Assembly (NCBI GenBank): GCA_021234155.1
Contig: JAJEKV010000323.1
Location: forward strand, 62,001 to 126,000
Source of the DNA: Isoetes taiwanensis
Lineage: Eukaryota > Streptophyta > Lycopodiopsida > Isoetales > Isoetaceae
Direction of reading: 5' to 3'
DNA: 64,000 bases
The position numbers and the translations under genes were made by a program. Position 1 is the first letter of the stretch; the number at the start of each line of letters is the position of its first letter. Below, piece after piece: positions 1-12,657 of the stretch. The notes below the pieces were generated by a model that searched no databases, was not told the DNA's origin, and worked only from the letters and a program-made list of their open reading frames with translations.

Positions 1-1070
1 AAGTCTCTGGTACTCTGGTTTTGCAAAATATCCATTGCATCATTCATAGATTAGTTTCTTTGTGTATTTAATGTCTTATTACTTGAACTTTATATTGTGC
101 CAGATATATGGCTTTAATCAGGTAGTCTACTCTTATCCATATTTATGCCGACTTGAAATTTGAAGGTTTGTTTCGTGCTCTAATATTTTTGATTTCATGG
201 AACGTCGGGGACATTGGGAGTTAAAGAAATCCTGTCTTGAATCAGAATCTCTAATAAGACAGAGAGGAAGCTGATGGAACTATTTAGAGCTATGATCACG
301 GTTGTAGTAGCTTGAAAAGTAGACGAATAGAGCTATGATCACGGCATCTACACATCTGTTTTATGTGGCTGGATGCATATGCAAATGCATGCAACAATGT
401 CCATTATTCTGTTGATGTCCAATTCTAGCAGTGGACAAAAGATAGATAGATGAGCAACTTGGCTTTAGAAAGATGTAATATGGTACATCTATTTTCAATG
501 TTTTCAATGTACACTCGCGTCTAAAACTAATTCTCTCTAATTTGTCTGTTGCTGGATTATTAAAAAATGAGGAGTAAATTTTAAGAGCAATAAATGGATT
601 AGGTAAGTGTACCTTTTGTTATCAGTTGCATGTCACCATCTGTCACCATCTCCATCCAGGTACTATCCTTTAGAGATTTAAATATACCATCCTAAGACCT
701 GGGAAGTTCCCAAAACATAGCATCCAGGATCTGCAATGTCATATTTGTTTATACTTCTGTAGTAGTTAAGATGCAAAATTGCTACTATATGCAGTAAGAG
801 TTAGCTAGCTTTTAAAGATATTGAAGGGCATAGATCTTAATAGACATTTTCCATTTATTTTTAATGAATACAAGACTTCACAATTATGACCTTGGGCATG
901 CTAAGAAGAAAAGCTACTGTATTGAATAGGAAAATAGACTTTATGGTATTACTGCATGTGCATGCTAGAGTTTGATTTGGAAAAGAGGCAATAACTAGCT
1001 ATTCAGATGTAACAAAAGGCAACATCGTCTACAAATGCAAGAAATTAACTTTAGCTCCTACAGTGAAACT
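1..1070. other. Non-coding stretch, possibly inside a Helitron
   Basis: No open reading frame, RNA gene or clear repeat is visible in this AT-rich DNA. A short phrase around 'agagctatgatcacgg' occurs twice near 285-345. Because a Helitron-type 3' terminus follows at 1077-1107 on the same strand, this DNA may be the interior of that element, but no 5' end could be fixed. Confidence 0.4.
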
Positions 1071-1076
1071 GTAGTC

Positions 1077-1107
1077 ATGCCCGGCAACGCCGGGCACCCG
1101 TTACTAG
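1077..1107 (+). mobile_element. Helitron 3' terminus (hairpin plus CTAG)
   Basis: An 8-bp stem with a 3-nt loop (TGCCCGGC-AAC-GCCGGGCA, 1078-1096) is followed a few bases later by CTAG (1104-1107) and a T. Plant Helitrons end in a GC-rich hairpin 8-12 nt before CTRR and insert between A and T, so this fits a Helitron 3' end on the plus strand. A near-identical end occurs in the opposite orientation at 17525-17553, which supports a family. The 5' end and any Rep/helicase gene are not seen. Confidence 0.6.
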
Positions 1108-1392
1108 TTTGACATTAATTTATGAATCTTATGGTATGTGTCTTGGTTTGTAAAACATTTTATGCGTTAAAGAGAACTTTTCTGCAATTTTCGAATATGA
1201 TAAGAAATGACCCTAGCTTAGACTGTACGTGTATAGTCCTAGGATTCCACTCAATAATGGGCTTTTCATTCAGTAATCCCCATGGATTAGGAGTAAACTT
1301 AGTGACCTTATATTCTAATGGAAGTAATTGACAGTTATACTAATCAAAATCGAAATTAATGAACATAAAAGTGATAATTAATTTGCCATAAC

Positions 1393-1443
1393 TCAAGAAA
1401 AGAAAAAGAAAAAGAAAAAGAAAAAGAAAAAGAAAAAGAAAAA
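1393..1443. repeat. (GAAAAA)n microsatellite
   Basis: About eight units of a 6-bp purine repeat lie directly before the LINE ORF1 remnant. It may mark the truncation or insertion junction of that element. Confidence 0.85.
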
Positions 1444-1462
1444 GCCTCCTACTCAAGAATCA

Positions 1463-2300
1463 TTGTTTGCACAGGAGGTCCCTCGTCCCACAAGTGCTCG
1501 GTCTAGCATACAACTCCATGGTCAGGGGCAAGCTAATTACAGTGTAATAATGGATTTTCCATCTTTTCTTTTTGGTCCCCAGCGGCCTCTTCATATTGGC
1601 ACAAGCAGGCCTGGTACATTTACCTTCCAAGATCGGGAGGATCTCCAAAGTGCTCTAGACCTGCAAGTTCAGTGTTTGCCGCCTACACTTCGTGACCAGG
1701 TACGACTCATTCATTCTGAAGGAGGAATGACGGCCACATCTATGATTGTGTCTATTGAGAGATGGACACACTTATTACAGTTAATACATGCCTTTGTTCC
1801 AGACCCTAAAGCCCAGTATGTGGGCACAAGTGATGCCTCAGTACAAACACTAGATACAGAATTACAGCCACAGAAGAAACATTGTGTTGAAGCAGAGGTG
1901 CAGTCATTGGAAAGGGAACATGTTGAGGTGGGGACCAGGAGTCACAGTGCCGAGCTAGCAGCCAGGAGCAGGCTGCCTCAGTATCTTCTATTAGTAGGAG
2001 CCTGAACTTGCGTATTATAGGGGTTTCAGAGGCAGATGATGATGCCCTTTCTGATATGGATGCTTGCATTTTTTCACTAATGTCATGCATGTGAAGGCTG
2101 GTGGAGTTGTCTCTGCTACTAGGGTGGGAGCGGCAAGACTTGATCGTCCTTGCCATCTTTTGGTTCGGTTTCAAGACACTCTTAGCCGCTTACATGTTCT
2201 TCAGCATGGAAACCATCTCAGAGGGACTAGTTTCTCAGTACAGGAGGACCTCTCCCCTCTTCAATTGTGTAACCTAAGGAGGAGCTCTGCAAGGTGAGGG
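1463..2300 (+). pseudogene. LINE (L1-type) ORF1 remnant, frameshifted
   Basis: The reading frame is open from 1463 to 2005, then continues in a second frame (NLRIIGVSEADDDAL near 2003-2045) and a third (VGAARLDRPCHLLVRF near 2125-2180, then LRGTSFSVQEDLS). This order, NLRIIG, then RVG..RPR/LLVRF, then LRGT..V.EDLS, is the RNA-binding region of L1-type ORF1 proteins (Transposase_22-like), which coat LINE RNA. At least two frameshifts break it. The endonuclease/RT ORF2 is missing; a LINE-like 3' tail follows at about 2530-2600, so the copy is internally deleted. Identification rests on motif recognition, not on a search. Confidence 0.65.
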
Positions 2301-2520
2301 CAGCCCGCCTGCAAAAGCAATGGGCAGTGTACAGGGGAGGCGCAGCAATTATTCTAGATCAATGGCCTTCCAATCCTTGGACTGGCTATGTCTAGATAAT
2401 TTTAGAAGCATAACTTTACCACTAGCATTAGCATTATCTTATCTTATTCTTGGTAGCCTTTTAATATTTGGTTATTGTGTTTGGTGATGGGGCCTAGTCC
2501 CCAAGTTTTAGATGGGTTGT

Positions 2521-2735
2521 TGCCCTTGCATGTGTCGTCCCATAACCCGTTGGGTTCCCGTGGACGTAAAACTTCATCTTATCTTATCTTATCTCTATTC
2601 AAAAAGGGCACACGCAGGCCCATACATAGGGTTCGGACATGGCTCGCCCTGCCGGGCTTGCCATGCACTTACCCTGGCCTTCTTTTGTCCCATGGCCATG
2701 TATGGTCTCTGTGGATGTTAAAATGAATCCATCTA
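2521..2735 (+). mobile_element. Two LINE-type 3' ends with short-repeat tails
   Basis: Two segments share the pattern GTCCCAT…..TTGGGTTCCCGTGGACGTAAAA (about 2538-2572, followed by an (ATCTT)n tail) and GTCCCATGG…GGTCTCTGTGGATGTTAAAA (about 2687-2722, followed by an ATCTATC-like tail). A third copy, with a (TATTC)n tail, lies at 56545-56600. A conserved 3' end plus variable simple-repeat tail is the hallmark of non-LTR retrotransposons. The first copy probably belongs to the ORF1 remnant just upstream. Confidence 0.5.
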
Positions 2736-3499
2736 TCTTTTGAGCATTGAAGCAAATCATTCCTTATAAAAAACAAATGACCTTCCAAGTTTGCAAGGCA
2801 ACATCTCGACCTAAACTCATTCCAACAGAGCAGAGGTGGTTTGTCAATGGCGAAATTAAGTTCCTTTTTATCTTTAACACAGACCACGAGGTCTATGGTA
2901 ATGAAAAAAAAGGAGCAGATATAACAGGATTGCAAATTAAACGGGAGTGTTGCATCACTCCCGTTTCAAAGATTCCCTTAAAAAAAACACCAAGATTGGA
3001 AAAATGTTCATTTTCAAAAGAAGCTTGGGATTTTAAGTGGAACAAAATATTATATCATGCATTTTGGGGCCCTTTAAAATGATAATCTCGCATTTGTAGG
3101 AAAGAGCACTTGAAAATGGCAGAATTCCAGACACTAATACACCAGGAATATAACCAGGAAGTCGAAAACATCAAAAATACGTAAAAATAATTTTTTTTTT
3201 TATTAATTTCTTTCAGTACAGTAAATATGGCAGTATTTTGTAGCCAATAATAAATAATATAGCAAAAGAAAACTCAGAGGTCTAAATCGAAGTCCTCAGT
3301 GTGTGGTTTGCTCGTCTCACCTTTTTCTATCTCTTCAGTTTGCTCCTTTGGCACAGTTTTATCTTTGCTGGTGTCAACAGTCTCTTCAGGAATAGTATCT
3401 AGAGCTACTTTTTTGAGCTTTGCAAAGGTAGCTTCATCTTCCAGAGAGCTTGTAAAAGGAGGCTGTATCTCAGAGGATGTCATCTTGGCAAAATCTGAT

Positions 3500-4470
3500 G
3501 ATGATTTAGCTCCTAACTCTTGATTTTCATCTGGTAGAGTTGGTAGAGCAGACAACCTCATCTTGATGAAGTCTACAGCCTCTTTATCAATGTCAACAGC
3601 AACACAATTACGGCCCTTTTTAAGTGCACATGCTATTGTTGTACCAGAGCCAGAGAAAGCATCAAGGACCCAATCTCCTGGACGTGAGAACATATCCAGA
3701 ATATGGTTGATTAGTTTCTGTGGCTTCTGATAATGATTTACAATTCTGCCTTGTGCACTTGGGTCCTGGAGCTTCTATAATACTGCTGGGAACTCTAGGA
3801 CATTAGAAAAATTCTGGCAGGTTGCAGTGTTGAAGTGCTCCATGGTACGCTTCCCGTCGAAACTCCAGTAAGCTACATGGAGATACTCAACCTTGCTCAG
3901 CAGCCTCGGTCCTCCACCATGGTAGTTAATATTAGTTTTGTACCTGCAAGATCGTATTCCAGAATAGTAAGTACGTATTCCAAAATACACCCTGACGGGT
4001 TACAATTGCAACCATAAAAAAAAACTTGAAAGAAAGAACACATGAACGGCACTTTTGATTCTAAGACTCACCAGACCATGTTTTCATAACCGGCTTGCAC
4101 AGGGGAACCGAAGTGGTTCTTGAAAGTAGCTTCCACAAGGCCGGCCTGCATGCTTGAATGGAACACAACAAGACGCCAGTGTTTTGCTGTGGTAACCTGC
4201 TTAATTCCATCGACGAAAGCATTGAATTCTGAGTTTTTGAAAGGCTGATCGTCGTAGCGGCTATCCTTCAGCTTGAAACCATATGGCAAGTCTGCTATGA
4301 CCAATGTAAAATCTTGTGGCTTTATACTGCCTGGCAACTTAGTGCAGTCCCCATGAACGATAGAATAAAAATTATTTTGATCGAACATAGAAAACCTCTC
4401 GTAGTCGGACGGCTCAGATCTACAACGCCTGTCCGCTAGGGTCCTCTCTCTTCTCGGGCTGTTCGTACCA
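3500..4470 (-). other. Beta-class DNA methyltransferase domain (motif IV then motif I)
   Basis: Seen in translation: FYSIVHGDC near 4370, VIADLPYGFKLKD (motif IV, DLPY in place of DPPY) near 4270-4310, then, after an intron at 3949-4071, KPQKLINHILDMFSRPGDW leading into VLDAFSGSGTT (motif I) near 3640-3690, and NCVAVDIDKEAVDFIKMRL (motif II, the SAM-binding acidic strand) just after. Motif IV ahead of motif I is the beta-class order typical of bacterial N4C/N6A enzymes (PF01555). The C-terminal about 90 residues are an acidic, low-complexity tail. An in-frame TAG (3775-3777) lies between motifs IV and I, so this copy should not make a full enzyme unless the stop is an assembly error. Confidence 0.75.
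3949..4071 (-). other. Phase-2 intron carrying two degenerate palindromes
   Basis: The donor GTGAGT follows 'ATG GTC TG' and the acceptor TTGCAG precedes 'G TAC AAA ACT', so the joined reading is …ENMVWYKTNINY…. Inside lie GTATTTTGGAATAC and CTATTCTGGAATAC, diverged copies of the palindrome arrayed at 4795-5036 and 7335-7587. Confidence 0.6.
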
Positions 4471-4794
4471 GGTGCATAAAACCTTGGCGGCAGGTCCTTG
4501 TTCTTCTTCTTGCTGTTAATGATTAAAGTCACTTCATGCAACACAAGCGGAAAACTTTAAAACAGGAAAACGACGTACCCAGCCCTCAAAATTTGGAGCG
4601 TATTGAATAATACGCTCGTCGGATGTAGCAATGGGATAGAGCTCTCTGCACCTCTCCCAGCTGTCCACGTTCAGCTGCTCCATCAAACACGTTTGGCACG
4701 TAATAACGTTTTTTTGGCTGGAAGTCAACGACAAGGAAACAAAATAAGACTTCGTTTCCGGAAAACGAAAACACCAAGAAGAGGAAACCAAATT

Positions 4795-5036
4795 GTATTC
4801 CGGAATACACATTTGACTCATGTGAAAGGCCAAAAGGTATTCCGGAATACACATCCGCTTACAAGCCGAAGCAAAAGTGTATTCCGGAATACACTTTTGC
4901 TTTACGTTGGAAGCAAAAGTGTATTCCGGAATACACTTTTGCTTCGGCTTGTAAGCGGATGTGTATTCTGGAATACACTCTAGACTACTCGCAGAATCCG
5001 TAGTGTGTTCTGGATCTCTACTGTATTCTGGAATAT
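4795..5036. repeat. Palindrome array 1 (GTATTCCGGAATAC, 42-bp spacing)
   Basis: Core 14-mers start at 4795, 4837, 4879, 4921 and 4963, each exactly 42 bp from the last; a sixth, weaker core is at 5023. Two central copies extend to GTGTATTCCGGAATACAC. The spacers either side of about 4907 are inverted copies of one another (CATCCGCTTACAAGCCGAAG on one side, its complement on the other), so 4839-4976 is one large near-palindrome. The array falls in an intron of the methyltransferase gene. Confidence 0.95.
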
Positions 5037-5589
5037 GCTTAGTGCTAAGGAAAGAAACCTAAAACGAAAGTTTACATCGTTTTACCATGCGAGTTCCTTG
5101 GACATTTCTTCTAGAGTTAATTCTTTGTCTACTACCTTCTGCAGTAGCCTTTCTAGTATGTCCATATTAGTAAAGCCCTGCATTTCTCTCCACACTGTTA
5201 TCGTCATTTCTTTTTTTGGGACATCAGAACCTTTTTTCTTTTCTGAGACCTTCCTTTTACTTTTCAATTCACCACACTCGAACATGGTAAATATCTCGTT
5301 TTGTAGGTCCCATATCTGCACAGTATTAAACGAGGTCAGTCGAGGGCAAGAAAGTTATTCCAGAATACAAAAGACACTTACTCTGCCATCTCTGAAGGCT
5401 AATTGAAACCAGTTGTCATGCGGTATGAGTGACTGCCGTTTGTTAGCCTCGTCGTGCATTTGAGGCAAACACTCCTCGCAAGCAGCTTCCTTGCTCTAAA
5501 GGAGTTTGGTTTCTTCAAGTCTTCTCCATATTTTTCTTTAAAAATCATGTACTCCCCCGTGCATGAACCGGATCTTGTCGACAAAGCTC

Positions 5590-5965
5590 ATTTTTAATTT
5601 GTATTCGTTGTCGCGATTGTGTGTGTTGGCAAGCGATTTTTTTGCTTCTTCGTCGGTGAGACCACGATGAGGCGCATTACGGGACGGAAAGATACCTGGG
5701 GTTATTTTTTTCCTTGTACAGCTGCCTTCTTGTATGATTTCCTCCCAAGACGTAGTGAGTGTAAGTGTCTGCTTTTTCTCTGTCATAGTCCTGGGGGGTG
5801 TTGCATTGCTCCCTGTCAACAAGGACAACTATTGGCGCCACATGAGCATTAGGATTGCTCCTAATTCTATCCTTCCGGGTTCCTTAAGTGGTCGGCATAT
5901 ATTTTACTGAACACAAGCGGCCTTTCACCAGCTTCATTCTTTGGAAGCAGCTTCATGCAAGTTAC
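5590..5965 (-). other. ParB/sulfiredoxin-like GGNH domain
   Basis: Minus-strand translation gives SNPNAHVAPIVVLVDREQC, then YVLGGNHTRRQL (about 5725-5755), then, one frame over, GLTDEEAKK…HNRDNEYKLKMSFVDK. An 'APIVVL' strand followed by a GGNHT helix start resembles the ParB N-terminal nuclease-like fold (PF02195), whose signature is G-(N/E)-x-R followed by an x-x-A helix. Such domains are fused to DNA methylases in phage and plasmid proteins. The assignment comes from motif memory and domain order. Single-base frameshifts flank the domain on both sides. Confidence 0.5.
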
Positions 5966-6350
5966 AGGAAGATAGATCACCCCTTGTACAAATTTTTCTG
6001 CATTTATTACCTCCATTCTTTCGGAGGTCTTATCAACTTTCTTTTCTTTTATTGCTACCCCGGGAGCTTTTCCTTTTCCCTTTTGTTTTTTTGTGCTTCC
6101 CTCGGGGATTTCAGCAACTTCAAGCTGCTGTACCTTCCGCTTCTTTGGTTCCTTAGCAGCTATAGTGTCTCTTGGCCTGCTAGGTTTCTTTGGCGGCACT
6201 GGGGGCTCTTCCTCTTCGAAATCTTGGTACCCTCCATCTGATGACCCCCCGGAATTACTAGGAGAAGGTGATGATCCTCCATCTGACTGCTCTGACTCAC
6301 TGACAGGAAAATCTTCGCTGGTACTAGTACAAACCTGTCTAATTAGTGAA

Positions 6351-6671
6351 GGGTAAAAGCATGTTAGGGTGTACCACTTTTGGAACCTGCAAAAGTACAT
6401 ACACTAGGTACTTCAGAACTGGGTACTTTCTCATTTTTATTTTCATTAAAACTAGTACAAAAGTCCAAAATAAAAGTCAAGGACGCATTAATATTCAAAG
6501 TTAAGATAAAGATAATGCTACTGGAGACCAAAATATATATAAAAGTTCTAGAGTGTACCTATTATTGAGATATTACACAAGTACCCAGTACCCAGTCCTG
6601 GGTACCTTTTTAGGTACTTTTTTGGTCACTAAATAATACTTTTTAAGGGACACCCTAACATGCTTTTACCC
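6351..6671. mobile_element. 321-bp MITE, family A, inserted in a coding exon
   Basis: Terminal inverted repeats of about 22 bp start GGGTAAAAGCATGTTAGG. The flanks carry a 4-bp target duplication, TGAA at 6347-6350 and 6672-6675. It is non-coding and AT-rich inside, with repeated GGTAC/AGTACC words. A second copy in the opposite orientation lies at 49311-49632 with its own 4-bp duplication (AGGG). It interrupts the methyltransferase gene: removing the element and one TGAA joins KRSLSS to LIRQVCTST in frame. Confidence 0.9.
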
Positions 6672-7080
6672 TGAAGACAAGCTGCGTTTAGTCCGGTAGT
6701 GTGAAAAGAAATTGTACAGTGTTTGTGGTTGCACACTGACAATTCTAAAGAAGGCGATGTCAACAACAATGAACCCTTGGAAGGTCTTGAAGGATAGCCT
6801 CCCCATCTGACCTCCTTGTCCGGCTACCTCTGAGACCTCTTTAATTGTCCCAAGGTTGACAAACTCTGTGTCGGCGTACCTTTTGCTTCCAGCACTTTTA
6901 CAGACGTACAGAAATGTCAATGTGCTGTACTTTCCGTCTGCACCCCTGGTAATGAACCACTGCGTTTGAAAGTTTTCATAAATGGTAGGCTCCTCCGTGT
7001 CACCAGTGCGCTTTTGAGGGTGTGGACGCTTAATCTTCAAAGTCTTTTTTGTTGCCCTTTTGCTGCCTTCTTCCCTGTTA

Positions 7081-7992
7081 CTGAAACATTGCAGACAACA
7101 ATGTTAAGACAGAAAATGAGACGAAAGCTATATTCCAGAATAGGATTTACTAATCATGTGCCCTAAAGGCTAGCAAAAGACAACAAAAAAAACACAAATA
7201 TTGTCTTTTTAACACAATTTTTCATGCCCTTAATGGGTAAATATGTGGAGTGTTCAAACTAAAAATTGGTCTGTTACAGCTAAAAAGTGGTGTTCAAGTG
7301 CAAAAAAACTAGTGTTTTCAAGAAGATAAGCAAAGTGTATTCCGGAATACACTTTGCCCTTCTGCCAGAAGGGCAAAGTGTATTCTGGAATACACTTTGC
7401 CCTTCGGCCGAAGGGCAATGTGTATTCCGGAATACACTTTCAATGTGTATTCCGGAATACACTTTGCTCTTCTCCTGAAGGGCAAAGTGTATTCCGGAAT
7501 ACACTTTGAACTTCGGCAGTGATCAAAGTGTATTCCAGAATACACTTTGCACTTCGTCAGAAGCTCAAAGTGTATTCTGGAATACACTTTGGCTTACAAA
7601 AGCAAAACATTAAACACACGAAAGACGTACTATGTACTTTAATTGCTTACCTGTCCATTATTTTCGCTATGTGAATCAGAATACAGCAAATCAATATAGA
7701 TCGGAAGGCGCTTGGGCTGGCGACTAAATCTCTGGAAGCGGAATACGCAACTGAGGCGCTGAATTTTCCTTTTTAAAGGTAGGCCACTGTCAGTTGCATT
7801 TTTCTATGTAATGCGGAATACGTCTTGTTTAAACACTCTGGCCAAGTGTATTCTGGAATAGCATCTGTGCACACAAACAGCAAACGCTGCACAAAAATTA
7901 GTATTCCGGAATAGCATTTGTATTCTCTAGTATCTTTAGTCCAATCGACTTGTGAGTTAGTAACAAGTCCACAATTTTTTGCAGTTGTTCAA
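7081..7992. promoter_or_regulatory. Divergent intergenic region between methyltransferase and transposase genes
   Basis: The two genes face away from each other here, so their promoters and any 5' exons should lie in this interval. It contains palindrome array 2 and further single diverged copies near 7127-7142, 7848-7860 and 7900-7912. A TTTTTTGCAG acceptor at 7975-7984 just ahead of ATGGTTAACC (7994) suggests that the transposase has an upstream non-coding or short exon. No TATA box could be assigned with confidence. Confidence 0.5.
7335..7587. repeat. Palindrome array 2, seven 18-bp units
   Basis: GTGTATTCCGGAATACAC or a one-base variant occurs at 7335, 7378, 7420, 7445, 7487, 7528 and 7570. 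Spacings are 43, 42, 25, 42, 41 and 42 bp. The spacers are themselves dyad-symmetric, for example TTGCCCTTCGGCCGAAGGGCAA-type palindromes at about 7395-7418, so palindromes alternate at two scales. It shares its unit with array 1 but not its spacers. Confidence 0.95.
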
Positions 7993-10900
7993 CATGGTTA
8001 ACCGCTTCGTGAACAAACTTCCACCACCATTTGTTTGCCCAAGTACCTCTACTTCAGATGGAACACAAGACGGAGATGCTTCTTCAACACCTACCTCGAC
8101 AAGGTCTTTGTTGCGTCTCGAAGACACTCCGAGTCCAGTAACTAGTAGACTGCCACCACCTTTCCAACCCTCTCCAAGTCCAGTAGGAAACCGGTTGCCA
8201 CCACCTTTCCAGCTCTCACCTGTTGCACGTAGCAATCTTCCACCACCATTTGTACCATCCCCCGACACTACAAATTCTCGACCTCAGAAAATAGTTCGAA
8301 ACAGACTACCTCAGCCGTTTGTAGTTTCTCCATCTTCACTTACACAAACAAGGAATACAGTACGTTCCGAAGACTGTGAGATTCACCACAGCTTCTCCCA
8401 CCACGATTTCACAACAAATGAAGACGACATTGCAACATTTACTCCTCTTCACACAACCGTAGTGACACATGGTTTTTTGCAGAATTTCAGTCTGCTATAA
8501 GAGACATGTTTGATCGAACTCCTTGTGAAGAAGCTACAACAACTTTCGCTGGCACATCATATGGTGGCCCATCTCCTTCATTCAACACTGCACCTCCGCC
8601 TTATCCGGGTACAGCTTCACGTGGTTTGTTCTCCTCTACAAGCACACCACTAAGGGTAGAGGAGGTCACCCCCAGAGTAGAACTCTCTTCAGAAGATGAA
8701 GACACCAACGAAGTGCAACGAGATTACACATTCTCTAGCCAATCCACCAAGAAATTCAAGGTGGATTTTAGTTTGAGAGCATGCTCCTCTGTAAGAAGAA
8801 GAAACCTTATGGACGAGCACAAAATGAGAAAACTTTTAAGAAGTAAATGGTGCTCATTGGGTTGCATCAACAAATTTAACATGGCTAAATTACGAGCAAT
8901 TAGAGACAACTACAGTTCAATGACATTGGCTGACCAGAATGCCTATTTGGCCTATCATGTACGACCAGACCGCAACACCTTCTTGCACTACATTAAGCGT
9001 CAAGAAGTTTGCCAGAAATGCTTCATGGTTGTCCACCGTTTAGGGTCCACCAGAATGTCTAGAATACATAAAAGACTGGACAAAAATCCAGCAATTGATG
9101 ATCATTGTGGACCAAGAAGAGTTGTAACCATGCATGCCCTTGCTGCTGTGTCATGGATGAAGAAATATTTTAGAGAAACATGTGAGAAGCTTCCTAATAG
9201 TAACATGTATCATTTAACTGATAACATCACCAAAAAAGATGTTTTTAATGAGTACAAAGAGACTTGCACTCAGCTTCAGCACATCTCTTACTCACACTTC
9301 ACCAGACTGTGGAAAAGTGAATTCGGTTTAGTGAAAATTCCCAGGAGACATAGAATGTCTGTTTGCTCAAGGTGTGCAGAATTAAAGAGTCAAAGAGAAA
9401 CTGCAAAGACAGAGGTCGAAAGAAGTAAGCTCATGTTCTCCAATCTCTCACTTGTTTTAAAGATAATGCTTTGACCTCATTTCTTCTACAGATATTGTGC
9501 AACAGAACCTTGCCAGACATCGTGAACAACAAGCAGCAGAGAGAAGAAAGCTTGCCAAACACAGAAAAAAAGCTCTTGAACGTCCACTGCAATATATGTC
9601 TGTTGTGATTGATGGAATGGACCAAAAAAAACTACTCTACCGCATTTCTTGAACATTCCTAAAGATGTGCCAGAGGAATGTTTTGTTAAGGTCCACCTTG
9701 TAGGAGCTATGGTCTTCAAAGGAAGTCTAAAGTGCAAAGTATTCTTGACGTATCCAAACTTGCATGGTGATCCGAACCTCACAATTACAATTCTTAACAA
9801 GGTCCTGTGCGAGCAAGAGCAATTACCACCAGTGCTTTACCTGCAACTTGACAATACTGCAAGGGAGAACAAGAACCAAACACTCTTTGCGTATTGTGCC
9901 ATGTTAGTGGAGCTAGGGATCTTTAGAAAAGTGAAGCTGGGTTTCTTACTTGTAGGCCACACTCATGATCAAATTGACCAAATGTTCAGTAGATTTTTCA
10001 GGCGCCTCTCGGAAGGAAGAAGGCTTTCTCTCTTCCTACTTTAGTTGAATTATTGAAGATTCTTACACTCCCACTCCGGTGATCGATCTTCTTAAAAGAG
10101 ACCGCTGATTTCGAGAGAGTTTATTTTCTCTCAACGTTCGCACGAGAGAACAAAGCTGTGAACAAATTGAATGATCTCACCTTTCAACATCACATCAAGT
10201 TCTACTTGAAGGATGGCCAGAGTTTCTTACAGGGCAAGAAGTATACCACAACTAAGGACTGGAGTCCACCAGAGGGATTACGCAGACACTTCCTTCGTAG
10301 AACGTGCTGAGCAACTTCCTCTCAAAAATCCTAAGGAGTCCAAGCAGAAGAAAAGTACCCCAGAGTCATCCTTAAAAGCCATTGAAAATGGAATTTCCTC
10401 AGGCTTTAAGTACTTCTTAGAAGAAGATCGGATGTGGTGGAGTAACTTCTTTCTCGAACAAAAAATTGTTGTGAAAAATATAGCTCTAAGACAGTTGCAA
10501 GAACCATTTCAATGGCCTAACACCTTCCATCAACCCCAGCACCAAACAGGTCCAAGCAATGCTACGTTAGCACCTGCAGTAGAAGAAGACGAGGATCGAG
10601 TCATGTACCTCGGACCAAGACGCAGGAATGAGCCTCAAGGTAATATCACAGAAATTACTAAGGGTATGCTAATTGCTCTTCCAACTGAGGAGGATGACAA
10701 AGGTCGACCTTTCGGATAGCAAAAAGTGCTTGACACGGGTCAAGGAGGAAGGCTTAGTCACTAAACTCAAGATTCATTGGCTTGCAACACATTTCGCTCA
10801 GAAAATGTTTTTGAAGGTAGATATGAGTTAGAAATGAGAAGCCAAGGAAAAGGGAGAAAGTCCAAGAAGGTGGGTTGTAGGGATGAGCTGATCCTTAATG

Positions 10901-11177
10901 ACGTGACTATATTATGCTATGATTTTAAATTGAAATCTGACAATCGTCTACACGCCAGAGGACTATCAATTTGCTTAAAAAAGCTTGTAATTACGAAGAA
11001 GAGGATGAAGAAGGTGGTGGCAATGCTTCACCATCTGTTGATAGTGATGAGGAAGATAACTCAAGCACTTCCTCTAGTGATAGTGAAAGAAGTGAAGGTG
11101 ATGAGGATGGCATAAATGAACAAGATGACGTCCTGGATCCCTCTCTCATCACTCCTCACACTTTTGTACATAACTGA
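7993..11177 (+). pseudogene. DDE/RNase H-like transposase gene 1 (LQLDN/GHTHD family), damaged
   Basis: Begins ATGGTTAACC at 7994. The N-terminus has five RLPPPF-type proline repeats (7996-8320). After a probable intron ending at about 8482 the frame continues from 8483 (FQSAIRDMFDR). CxxC pairs occur at VCQKC (about 9008) and VCSRC (about 9360). An intron, about 9424-9490, joins VER to NIVQQN in phase. The likely catalytic acidic residues are VIDGMD (about 9605), LQLDNTARENKN (about 9841) and GHTHDQIDQMF (about 9955). The C-terminal part (10213-11177) ends in an acidic Ser/Asp/Glu tail. Frameshifts occur in an A8 run at 9623-9630 and near 10015, 10080 and 10310. The domain looks like the RNase H-type core of uncharacterised eukaryotic transposase-like proteins (DUF7869-like). 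Its partner is the divergent methyltransferase gene. Confidence 0.7.
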
Positions 11178-12657
11178 GTCTTAGAAAAGATCAGAATTTT
11201 GCATGTGAATATGAAGATTCTATCTTCAAATTTTGAGAATACTACAGTTTCAGTTACGGACTTACTTCAATTTTTTGTTAAATATTTTATCCTCTTAAAT
11301 TAGAGATTCTCTCGTAAAATATACTTCAAGAACATTCTATTTGCTAAGAAAAGTGACACTTTGAAAATGTCAATTCTTTCGTTGCACAAAAAAATTAGTC
11401 ATTTTGGGGGGGGGGTCAAAATAGAATTTCATGCATCTTTTTTTTTTTTAACCTAGTTTTACCCCCTTTTGTAAAAAAAAGGGGAATCTTTGAGGAATAT
11501 TCCTTTCGCTCTCGTTTCGATGATTTGCTCCCGTTTAATACGCAATCCTGTTATATACCTATGGAGATGAGAAATGATAGACCACAAATTTACTCTAGAA
11601 AAAATCCATGCATAGTTCGCCTGTTCCATGCAACATCATATACAAACTCCAGATCATACTCCAATGAAGGACATCATGCAGGACTACGGTCTCAAAATTG
11701 TGAAAAGCATATGGTGTTAAATAAGATTTTGAATGGTTATCGAGCTGTATTGGTAGATATTTTCGTATGTTGCTGATGGTGGATGGGCTAGTTTGACCCA
11801 AAGAGATGCCTTTACGAAAGTTGCTTTTTTAGTTGTTAGAAAAATGTCACATGGAGATGCTAAAAAAGATAACACGGCCAATTGCTATTTAGATATTTTC
11901 ATTTTGGTGACGTGGTATATTCTATTTTAAGTATTTTGATTTAGGTTAAGTGTAACAGGGGCGGCATGATGGCGACATGGTTCTCTGACTGATGCGGATG
12001 TTGGGTCTTTGCGAGATGGTCCGTTGGCTTTTTTTTTTGCAGAGACGAAGCCAATCAAAGGGAGCGTTAGTGATGCAAGCATAAAGCGAATGCCAGAAAA
12101 AATGTTAAAATGGCGTCAGCAAGCACGTCATAAATATTTTAACTAAATAGATTGTTCTTCGGGCAGAAGATGAATATTGGATAAAAAATGTGGCTAAATA
12201 ATTCCCTCTCCACTGAAAGAGGAATTGAATCGGATTGGATTGGATTGAATTGAACTGATTTGAATAAAGGAGTTAGTAGCAAGAATGGCACATTTGATTT
12301 GAGGTTTTTATGTCTGAAAGATAACACACTACTTGACCTATTGTTTCTATGGTAATATAGTTTTTACTTTCTTCAAGAAAAACATATATTTTTACAAATG
12401 ACGTCCGTCAAAAAATAAAAACTATAAAAGACCATACCTATAGTGGCTTGATAACGGTTAATAGTTTAATTTAGTAGTTTTAATGTCATACCACATTGCC
12501 AGCATCCCCCTAGGACATATGACGACTCATACTCAGACACACACTATATATGATGAGACTCGCACTCACCCGCTTCATTCCCAGCACACACCACCCGTGA
12601 TGAGACTTGCACTCATCCACTTCTCCACCTGATGGTAATTATGAAGTTTGTTTTTTG
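11178..12657. other. Non-coding stretch
   Basis: AT-rich with homopolymer runs: G at about 11405-11415, T at about 11440-11449 and A at about 11474-11481. A GGATTGGATTGGATTGAATTGAA microsatellite-like run lies near 12232-12254. No coding signal was found. The right terminus of the transposase 1 element should be here or further left of the 12.66-kb element, but no convincing inverted repeat partner was found. Confidence 0.4.

Follow-up and report, generated by a model that had tools for sequence, protein, structure and literature searches.

A DNA transposon of the quillwort Isoetes taiwanensis that encloses a DUF7869 transposase and a predicted ParB-type amino-methyltransferase with intronic palindrome arrays

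We analysed a stretch of 64,000 nucleotides of the Isoetes taiwanensis (quillwort) genome (contig JAJEKV010000323.1, positions 62,001 to 126,000, forward strand; the whole stretch is called the window, and positions are numbered within it) and found that positions 2923-11552 are one cut-and-paste DNA transposon, bounded by terminal inverted repeats (TIRs), with two genes inside. One encodes a DUF7869 transposase and the other a methyltransferase that sequence comparison assigns to the beta-class (permuted) N6/N4 amino-methyltransferases, with predicted activity on DNA. Arrays of a palindrome lie in the introns of the methyltransferase gene, and the palindrome differs between element families. 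We estimate a probability of roughly 0.5 that an element-encoded protein uses these arrays as family-specific cis sites, for self-marking or anti-silencing. Whether a dedicated enzyme writes N6-methyladenine (6mA) or N4-methylcytosine (4mC) on plant nuclear DNA, and for what, is disputed; this multi-copy element offers candidates for the writer and for its target sites and, in the three cores of one palindrome, natural variants in specificity.

Element ends, copies and gene pairing

The element measures 8,630 bp, its 25-bp TIRs differ from each other at two positions, and a 4-bp duplication, ATAT, abuts it on both sides (Table 1). An earlier note on this DNA, made from the letters alone, had drawn the element at 3274-11177, which proved too short. 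The same note had proposed a single element containing both genes and had said beforehand that ends excluding one of them would speak against this; in this genome, the shared ends enclose both. The genome searched held 1,658,258,908 bases in 1,110 contigs (the published assembly, which drew on Nanopore reads, is given as 1658.30 Mb in 204 scaffolds and 909 contigs; PMC8566536). The left-end sequence occurred at 661 places with up to three mismatches (308 on one strand and 353 on the other) and a control sequence at none, and the bases just outside AACA differed among the 100 left-end places listed. For comparison we used 14 copies, namely the window and 13 loci picked from the match lists. Both ends were found, at up to five substitutions, in 8 of the 14 and not in L008-L013, and all eight had a 4-bp duplication (GTTT, TCCT, ATGT, ATAT, TCTT, CTTA, ATAT and ATAT). 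The window copy is dead: an in-frame TAG interrupts the last methyltransferase exon, both genes carry frameshifts and, judged by eye against copy L002, methyltransferase exon 2 contains a nested insertion. The family is multi-copy in the I. taiwanensis genome. A contaminant origin is ruled out by the introns and by copies on scaffolds up to 44 Mb long.

The two genes lie head to head in the window, as first described, and elsewhere in the genome. When the best 150 of 2,418 methyltransferase-exon candidates were set against the best 150 of 7,761 transposase candidates, at least 52 pairs within 40 kb were present among the matches listed, with about 1 expected by chance from simple arithmetic. 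Fifty of these 52 listed pairs were head to head, and 33 of the fifty were separated by 4.9-6.6 kb. One of the 100 listed element ends lay within 3 kb of 25 of the 150 methyltransferase matches, in every case inverted as in the window. We also drew at random 8 of the 98 transposase matches that had no listed partner within 40 kb, and found head-to-head methyltransferase sequence at all eight, although at L017 this was only part of exon 2. Chance neighbourhood of the two genes is thus ruled out by the listed pairs together with the random loci. The earlier note had also said that genes almost never found together in other copies would speak against its proposal; within this genome they did occur together. 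We also read six loci of DUF7869 elements that are more distant, L022-L024 at 10 kb and L033-L035 at 6 kb. Three of them (L022, L023 and L034) carry a methyltransferase, again head to head and 43-66% identical per stretch, except for the N-terminal stretch of L022 (20%). The pairing is therefore older than the window's family, and it is not universal in the loci read.

Several further features were seen in or beside the element. The insertion in exon 2 is a short nested element at about 6343-6673 that, as read by eye, is bounded by inverted ends of its own (GGGTAAAAGCATG...) and has a TTCA duplication; a related sequence, 69% identical, lies at 992-1312 of L025. An extra imperfect palindrome stands beside the left end at about 2940-2966 and is perfect over 28 bp in L007 (139) and L010 (157); it is perhaps a transposase or hairpin feature. 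To the left of the element, at about 1393-1445, there is a run of AAAAAG hexamers, also read by eye.

Table 1. Coordinates of the element and its parts in the window
Feature	Position	Strand	Remark
Target-site duplication, left (ATAT)	2919..2922		Matches the 4 bp abutting the other end
Left terminal inverted repeat, AACAGGATTGCAAATTAAACGGGAG	2923..2947	+	From the inverted-repeat pair and genome count
Methyltransferase gene, ParB-type amino-methyltransferase (predicted), degenerate, six exons in the model	3271..7660	-	Borders from GT-AG introns in L006, L011 and L012
Last methyltransferase exon, AdoMet motif FSGSGTT, in-frame TAG near 3775	3274..3943	-	PF01555, E = 9.4e-18, stop written X
DLPY-motif exon of the methyltransferase, upstream border approximate	4072..4533	-	With the last exon, profile match to CcrM in other copies, E = 2.6e-13
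Palindrome array, third methyltransferase intron, steps of about 42 bp	4793..5040
Part of exon 2, ParB/sulfiredoxin-like domain (model-based), frameshifts, borders approximate	5480..6341	-	Fold match in L011, ParB Z = 10.7
Part of exon 2, fast-evolving N-terminal domain	6676..7103	-	No Pfam match
Palindrome array, first methyltransferase intron (gene model), mostly 41-43-bp steps	7335..7587
Two single imperfect palindrome sites between both start codons	7847..7916
DUF7869 transposase gene, degenerate, frameshifts, end approximate	7994..11177	+	L013 holds the same gene in an open frame
Frame with DUF7869 core (LQLDNT, GHTHDQID)	9613..10044	+	PF25273, E = 1.4e-41
Right terminal inverted repeat	11528..11552	-	2 mismatches to the left repeat
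Target-site duplication, right (ATAT)	11553..11556		Copy of the left 4 bp

The methyltransferase and the transposase

The earlier note had read the two genes from short motifs, LQLDN and GHTHD for a transposase and DLPY followed by FSGSGTT for a methyltransferase, and profile searches bear out both. The transposase motifs fall within the frame that matches DUF7869 (PF25273; 142.7 bits against a curated cut-off of 26), and the last methyltransferase exon matches N6_N4_Mtase (PF01555) at 65.4 bits against a cut-off of 26.7, with 65.5 bits for copy L011. DLPY lies upstream of FSGSGTT, so motif IV precedes motif I, which is the permuted, beta order. The best-kept methyltransferase, in L011, comprises 943 residues in five exons with GT-AG introns and no stop, the very short first exon not included. 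A profile of the two catalytic exons (the DLPY exon and the last exon), built from six copies of three families, aligned with CcrM along most of its length (E = 2.6e-13) and with MboIIA, RsrI and DpnA over the AdoMet-binding part; two N4-cytosine methyltransferases ranked next (E = 0.002). CcrM and its like are beta-class enzymes.

The claim that the methyltransferase is of ParB type holds by fold and only weakly by sequence. The structure model of L011 exon 2 had a mean pLDDT of 53, with a better region at residues 231-380 (block means 64-88), and ranks 1-11 of the fold comparison were ParB, Noc or ParB-like chains (N-domains; Z 10.7-9.0), followed by sulfiredoxins and KorB. Foldseek alone gave no match at E 0.001 for this exon, the best being the ParB-like PadC at 0.007. 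No Pfam ParB match was found in the window frames or in L011; weak matches were to phrog_723 (E = 0.016) and TIGR03764 (E = 0.085), and an exon 2 profile searched against the PDB found no ParB chain. Membership of this part of exon 2 in the ParB/sulfiredoxin fold is thus supported by the modelled structure. The N-terminal domain, at about residues 38-120 of the model, gave only short matches, to WD-type and other chains, and it is poorly kept between families, at 20% identity over 127 aligned residues in L022 versus 49% for the ParB part.

Searches beyond the genome returned little. Phage records held only distant methyltransferases, 24-28% identical among the 20 matches listed of 1337; short patterns and tblastn found no methyltransferase or transposase relative in viral contigs, and two short patterns found no methyltransferase relative in species genomes, both being weak tests. 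DUF7869 was not found in 14 control genomes, nor its name in the open-access literature searched. Among the gene frames scanned there was no reverse transcriptase domain, unlike in a DIRS-type retroelement, and no TET/JBP gene.

The transposase of L013 lies within a single open frame of 987 codons. Candidate residues for a DDE/D core of RNase H fold are the conserved acidic positions in DGMDQ, QLDNT and THDQID; the structure model is poor (mean pLDDT 35) and the profile matches no solved structure. As for the intact copies that the earlier note had suggested looking for, each gene is open in some copy, the methyltransferase in L011 and the transposase in L013, and these are different copies. 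In the 10 kb read of L013 (G000:C1018:2449000-2458999), the methyltransferase is matched for part of exon 2 and no further, and this copy may rely on others. In L020 a second, more diverged transposase copy lies at 5224-6998 on the same strand, beyond a methyltransferase remnant, and is perhaps a tandem or nested element.

Selection was assessed by pairwise NG86 comparison among copies, with broken copies represented by their best readable stretch. In the methyltransferase, the median dN/dS was 0.061 for the last exon (36 pairs), 0.197 for the DLPY exon (36), 0.043 for exon 3 (55) and 0.245 for exon 2 (21); in the transposase, the two halves gave 0.202 (15 pairs) and 0.131 (45 pairs, core). 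Pairs without an estimable dS were excluded from these medians, and the values are rough because synonymous sites are near saturation in many of the other pairs. Among very similar pairs, some had ratios between about 0.5 and 1.4, which is what dead copies should show. These ratios indicate that both genes are under purifying selection among the copies compared.

Palindrome arrays across copies and families

The 18-bp palindrome matched the 64-kb window 12 times at up to three mismatches (expected 0.00), always within 4793-7587, in agreement with the reported absence of the palindrome from flanking DNA. It had been placed in the methyltransferase introns and in the upstream region shared by the two genes; the first placement stands, both arrays being intronic by the gene model (the one at 7335-7587 lies just within that shared region), and the stretch from one start codon to the other has just isolated imperfect sites (7847-7916). 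The element contains 18 sites of a looser form, TATTCNNGAATA, all 18 of them non-coding by an approximate exon list, although about 70% of the element is coding. Across the 14 oriented copies (bases 900-5600; for the window, a slice of about 2900-8000), TGTATTCCGGAATACA occurred 183 times at up to three mismatches, 72 of them exact. Two hundred shuffled palindromes of the same half-site composition gave a mean of 0.64, and the two that scored highest (33 and 25) closely resemble the true palindrome. Sites were found in all 14 copies, in L006 only as variant forms. Of 119 spacings under 150 bp, 80 were 41-43 bp, and 42 bp corresponds to four turns of B-DNA. The exact 18-mer occurs 2,585 times genome-wide and the reversed pattern not at all. 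Variant forms of 15 or 14 bp within the window's family are TGTATTCCGAATACA (L014) and TGTATTCGAATACA (parts of L003, L005, L006, L016 and L018).

Other families have their own palindrome. L022 and L023 have no window-type site and carry GTATGAATTCATAC instead, both upstream of the transposase gene and within methyltransferase intron 2, together with some mixed forms and one GTATAAATTTATAC each. L034 has 25 copies of GTATAAATTTATAC: one lies past the last exon match, and the others either precede the transposase gene or fall in the second and the last intron of the methyltransferase gene. The same palindrome stands upstream of the transposase five times in L033 and three times in L035. None of the 45 sites in these five loci lies inside a matched exon. 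All three palindromes have the form GTAT-N6-ATAC with self-complementary cores, TCCGGA, GAATTC and AAATTT. This change of palindrome from family to family hints at self-recognition, with the element marking its own copies. Genome counts were 7,218 for GGTATAAATTTATACC and 13 for GGTATGAATTCATACC, with backward controls at 0. GGTATAAATTTATACC is the commonest of the three counted and, among the places listed (first on C2, C4 and C16), often recurs in steps of about 30 bp. L035 also has long GC-rich palindromes at 321-396 and 2291 (AAATGGCGCAGGTGCGCCATTT and the like), unrelated to the three cores.

Palindromes also occur in copies that lack the genes. We fetched five stretches around palindromes that stood isolated among the places listed. 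One palindrome (L027) lies inside a methyltransferase gene; the other four stretches (L025, L026, L028 and L029) each show an end of the element no more than about 700 bp away, without any protein match at E 0.001, and in L025 and L028 DNA comparison revealed that part of one methyltransferase exon survives. For this sample, we can thereby rule out a satellite that has nothing to do with the element. The L029 type, an end with its adjoining array (550 bp), is present at no fewer than 40 places with 90-100% identity. One gene-less copy was traced to both ends: it measures 3,690 bp, is flanked by an AATT duplication and has 13 sites in two groups nearer the ends, and its longest frame is 146 residues; matches to the two genes reached E 0.26 at best. 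A second copy (L032 with L037) could be traced to one end only. Since arrays are kept in gene-less copies that have moved, they probably act in cis and not only as promoters of both genes.

Candidate functions and known systems

If the arrays are indeed cis sites of this kind, an element-encoded protein would read the palindrome as a dimer, or as several dimers lined up along the same helical face; the methyltransferase would mark the element's own control DNA and leave the rest of the genome untouched; and marked copies might escape host silencing or gain a licence for transposition, a role like that of the VANC proteins of Arabidopsis VANDAL elements, here with a base-modifying enzyme. We lean slightly towards the methyltransferase over the transposase as the binder, because the arrays lie in its own introns in all three families with placeable introns, because ParB-type proteins load at palindromic sites (parS), and because VANC sets a precedent for a second element protein that binds motif arrays. 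The predicted product is likelier to be N6-methyladenine than N4-methylcytosine, because motif IV starts with D, as D(L/I)PY; a rotifer paper contrasts the DPPY of bacterial N6A enzymes with the N4C motif (PMC8885841), which is named as SPPY in PMC11065753. The fullest version of the proposal is that a phage- or bacterium-type ParB-methyltransferase was captured and, with the element's own parS-like palindrome arrays, came to serve self-recognition, each family having its own GTAT-N6-ATAC site and enzyme, with a 6mA or 4mC mark that allows silencing to be escaped or steered and transposition to be licensed. We advance this whole chain tentatively, at somewhat less than even odds. It makes a specific prediction, namely marks at the named sites that are absent elsewhere.

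Several observations weigh against self-marking by the methyltransferase. No methyltransferase match was found in L024 (10 kb), L033 or L035 (6 kb each), so parts can occur apart, although these may be truncated elements, and the 10-kb stretch of L024 also lacks any palindrome of at least 14 bp. The introns that hold arrays differ, being the third and first in the window's family and the second (plus the last in L034) elsewhere. Subfamily sites of 14, 15 and 16 bp are odd for one rigid dimer. The central CpG is the most changed part of the palindrome: of the 78 changes counted in its two columns, 31 are C to T and 39 are G to A. This is a mark of 5-methylcytosine decay, and many copies are therefore probably host-silenced. 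Finally, the canonical DPPY or SPPY is not present: motif IV is DLPY in the window's family, DIPY in L012, L022, L023 and L034, and DLSY in L004.

The alternative that fares best, which we nevertheless regard as unlikely, is that the palindromes are internal or subterminal sites of the transposase, used for synapsis, and that the methyltransferase has a separate task such as modifying excised DNA. The 3,690-bp gene-less copy would suit this, its sites being near both ends, as would the N-terminal half of the transposase, which also diverges more than the core (39% identity in L022 over residues 58-485, versus 54%); against it, the arrays of full copies in the window's family lie within introns of the methyltransferase gene and well inside the element, at distances of about 1.9 and 4.0 kb from its ends. 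Improbable, in our judgement, is a methyltransferase that has lost catalysis and serves only as a DNA-binding or chromatin protein. The departures from DPPY, with DLSY in L004, speak for this alternative, but FSGSGTT and D-x-P-Y are identical in all six aligned copies of three families and the last exon is under strong purifying selection. We give little credence to plain promoter or operator sites regulating both divergent genes, which would account for sites in the shared upstream region and the first methyltransferase intron but not for the large array in a later intron or for the array kept by the gene-less type at its 40 or more places. Just as doubtful is self-restraint, in which the enzyme would tag its own element for silencing or shut down rival copies: the bdelloid N4CMT, captured from bacteria, deposits 4mC at active transposons and is reported to have such an effect on them (PMC8885841), but it is a host gene, whereas here the element keeps the gene across families, which favours a benefit to the element.

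Among known systems, the arrangement most resembles that of VANDAL21 and VANDAL6 with their VANC proteins in Arabidopsis, which likewise have a second element protein; VANC binds motif arrays in introns and upstream regions, and the motif differs between families (PMC5735166; PMC10398659). VANC is not described in these sources as a methyltransferase. The quillwort element differs from VANDALs in its predicted ParB-methyltransferase, DUF7869 transposase, 4-bp duplications and palindromic sites. VANDALs are MuDR elements, which have a MuDR transposase and duplications of about 9 bp.

DNA methyltransferases are also carried by retroelements, and we know of no cognate site arrays in these. They are Dam-like adenine enzymes in DIRS elements and cytosine-C5 enzymes in retrotransposons of Symbiodinium and charophytes, and belong to other methyltransferase classes; DNA transposons of marine viruses with a cytosine methyltransferase are mentioned in the same source (PMC5890265). 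Fungal DNA transposons with TET/JBP dioxygenases are alike in having a base-modifying second gene, and differ in that the enzyme acts on methylcytosine and the transposases are of other superfamilies (PMC12730594). Bce_0392 of B. cereus and other bacterial and phage ParB-methylases fuse a ParB domain to an adenine methylase and are prokaryotic (PMC5512222), as are the CcrM-like beta-class enzymes matched by our profile. The bdelloid N4CMT is, as here, a PF01555 permuted amino-methyltransferase in a eukaryote, and besides being a host gene has a chromodomain in place of ParB (PMC8885841) and an SPPY motif of N4C type (PMC11065753). Among the titles and abstract openings of the open-access matches listed, none reported a DNA transposon with a ParB- or beta-class amino-methyltransferase, nor one with a ParB-methyltransferase and matching site arrays. 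The combination of an element-borne modification enzyme with VANC-like arrays, and the proteins that make it up, may therefore be new relative to the open-access literature covered; if the proposed function is true, the quillwort element would represent a second, enzymatic kind of sequence-specific transposon self-recognition beside that of VANDAL and VANC.

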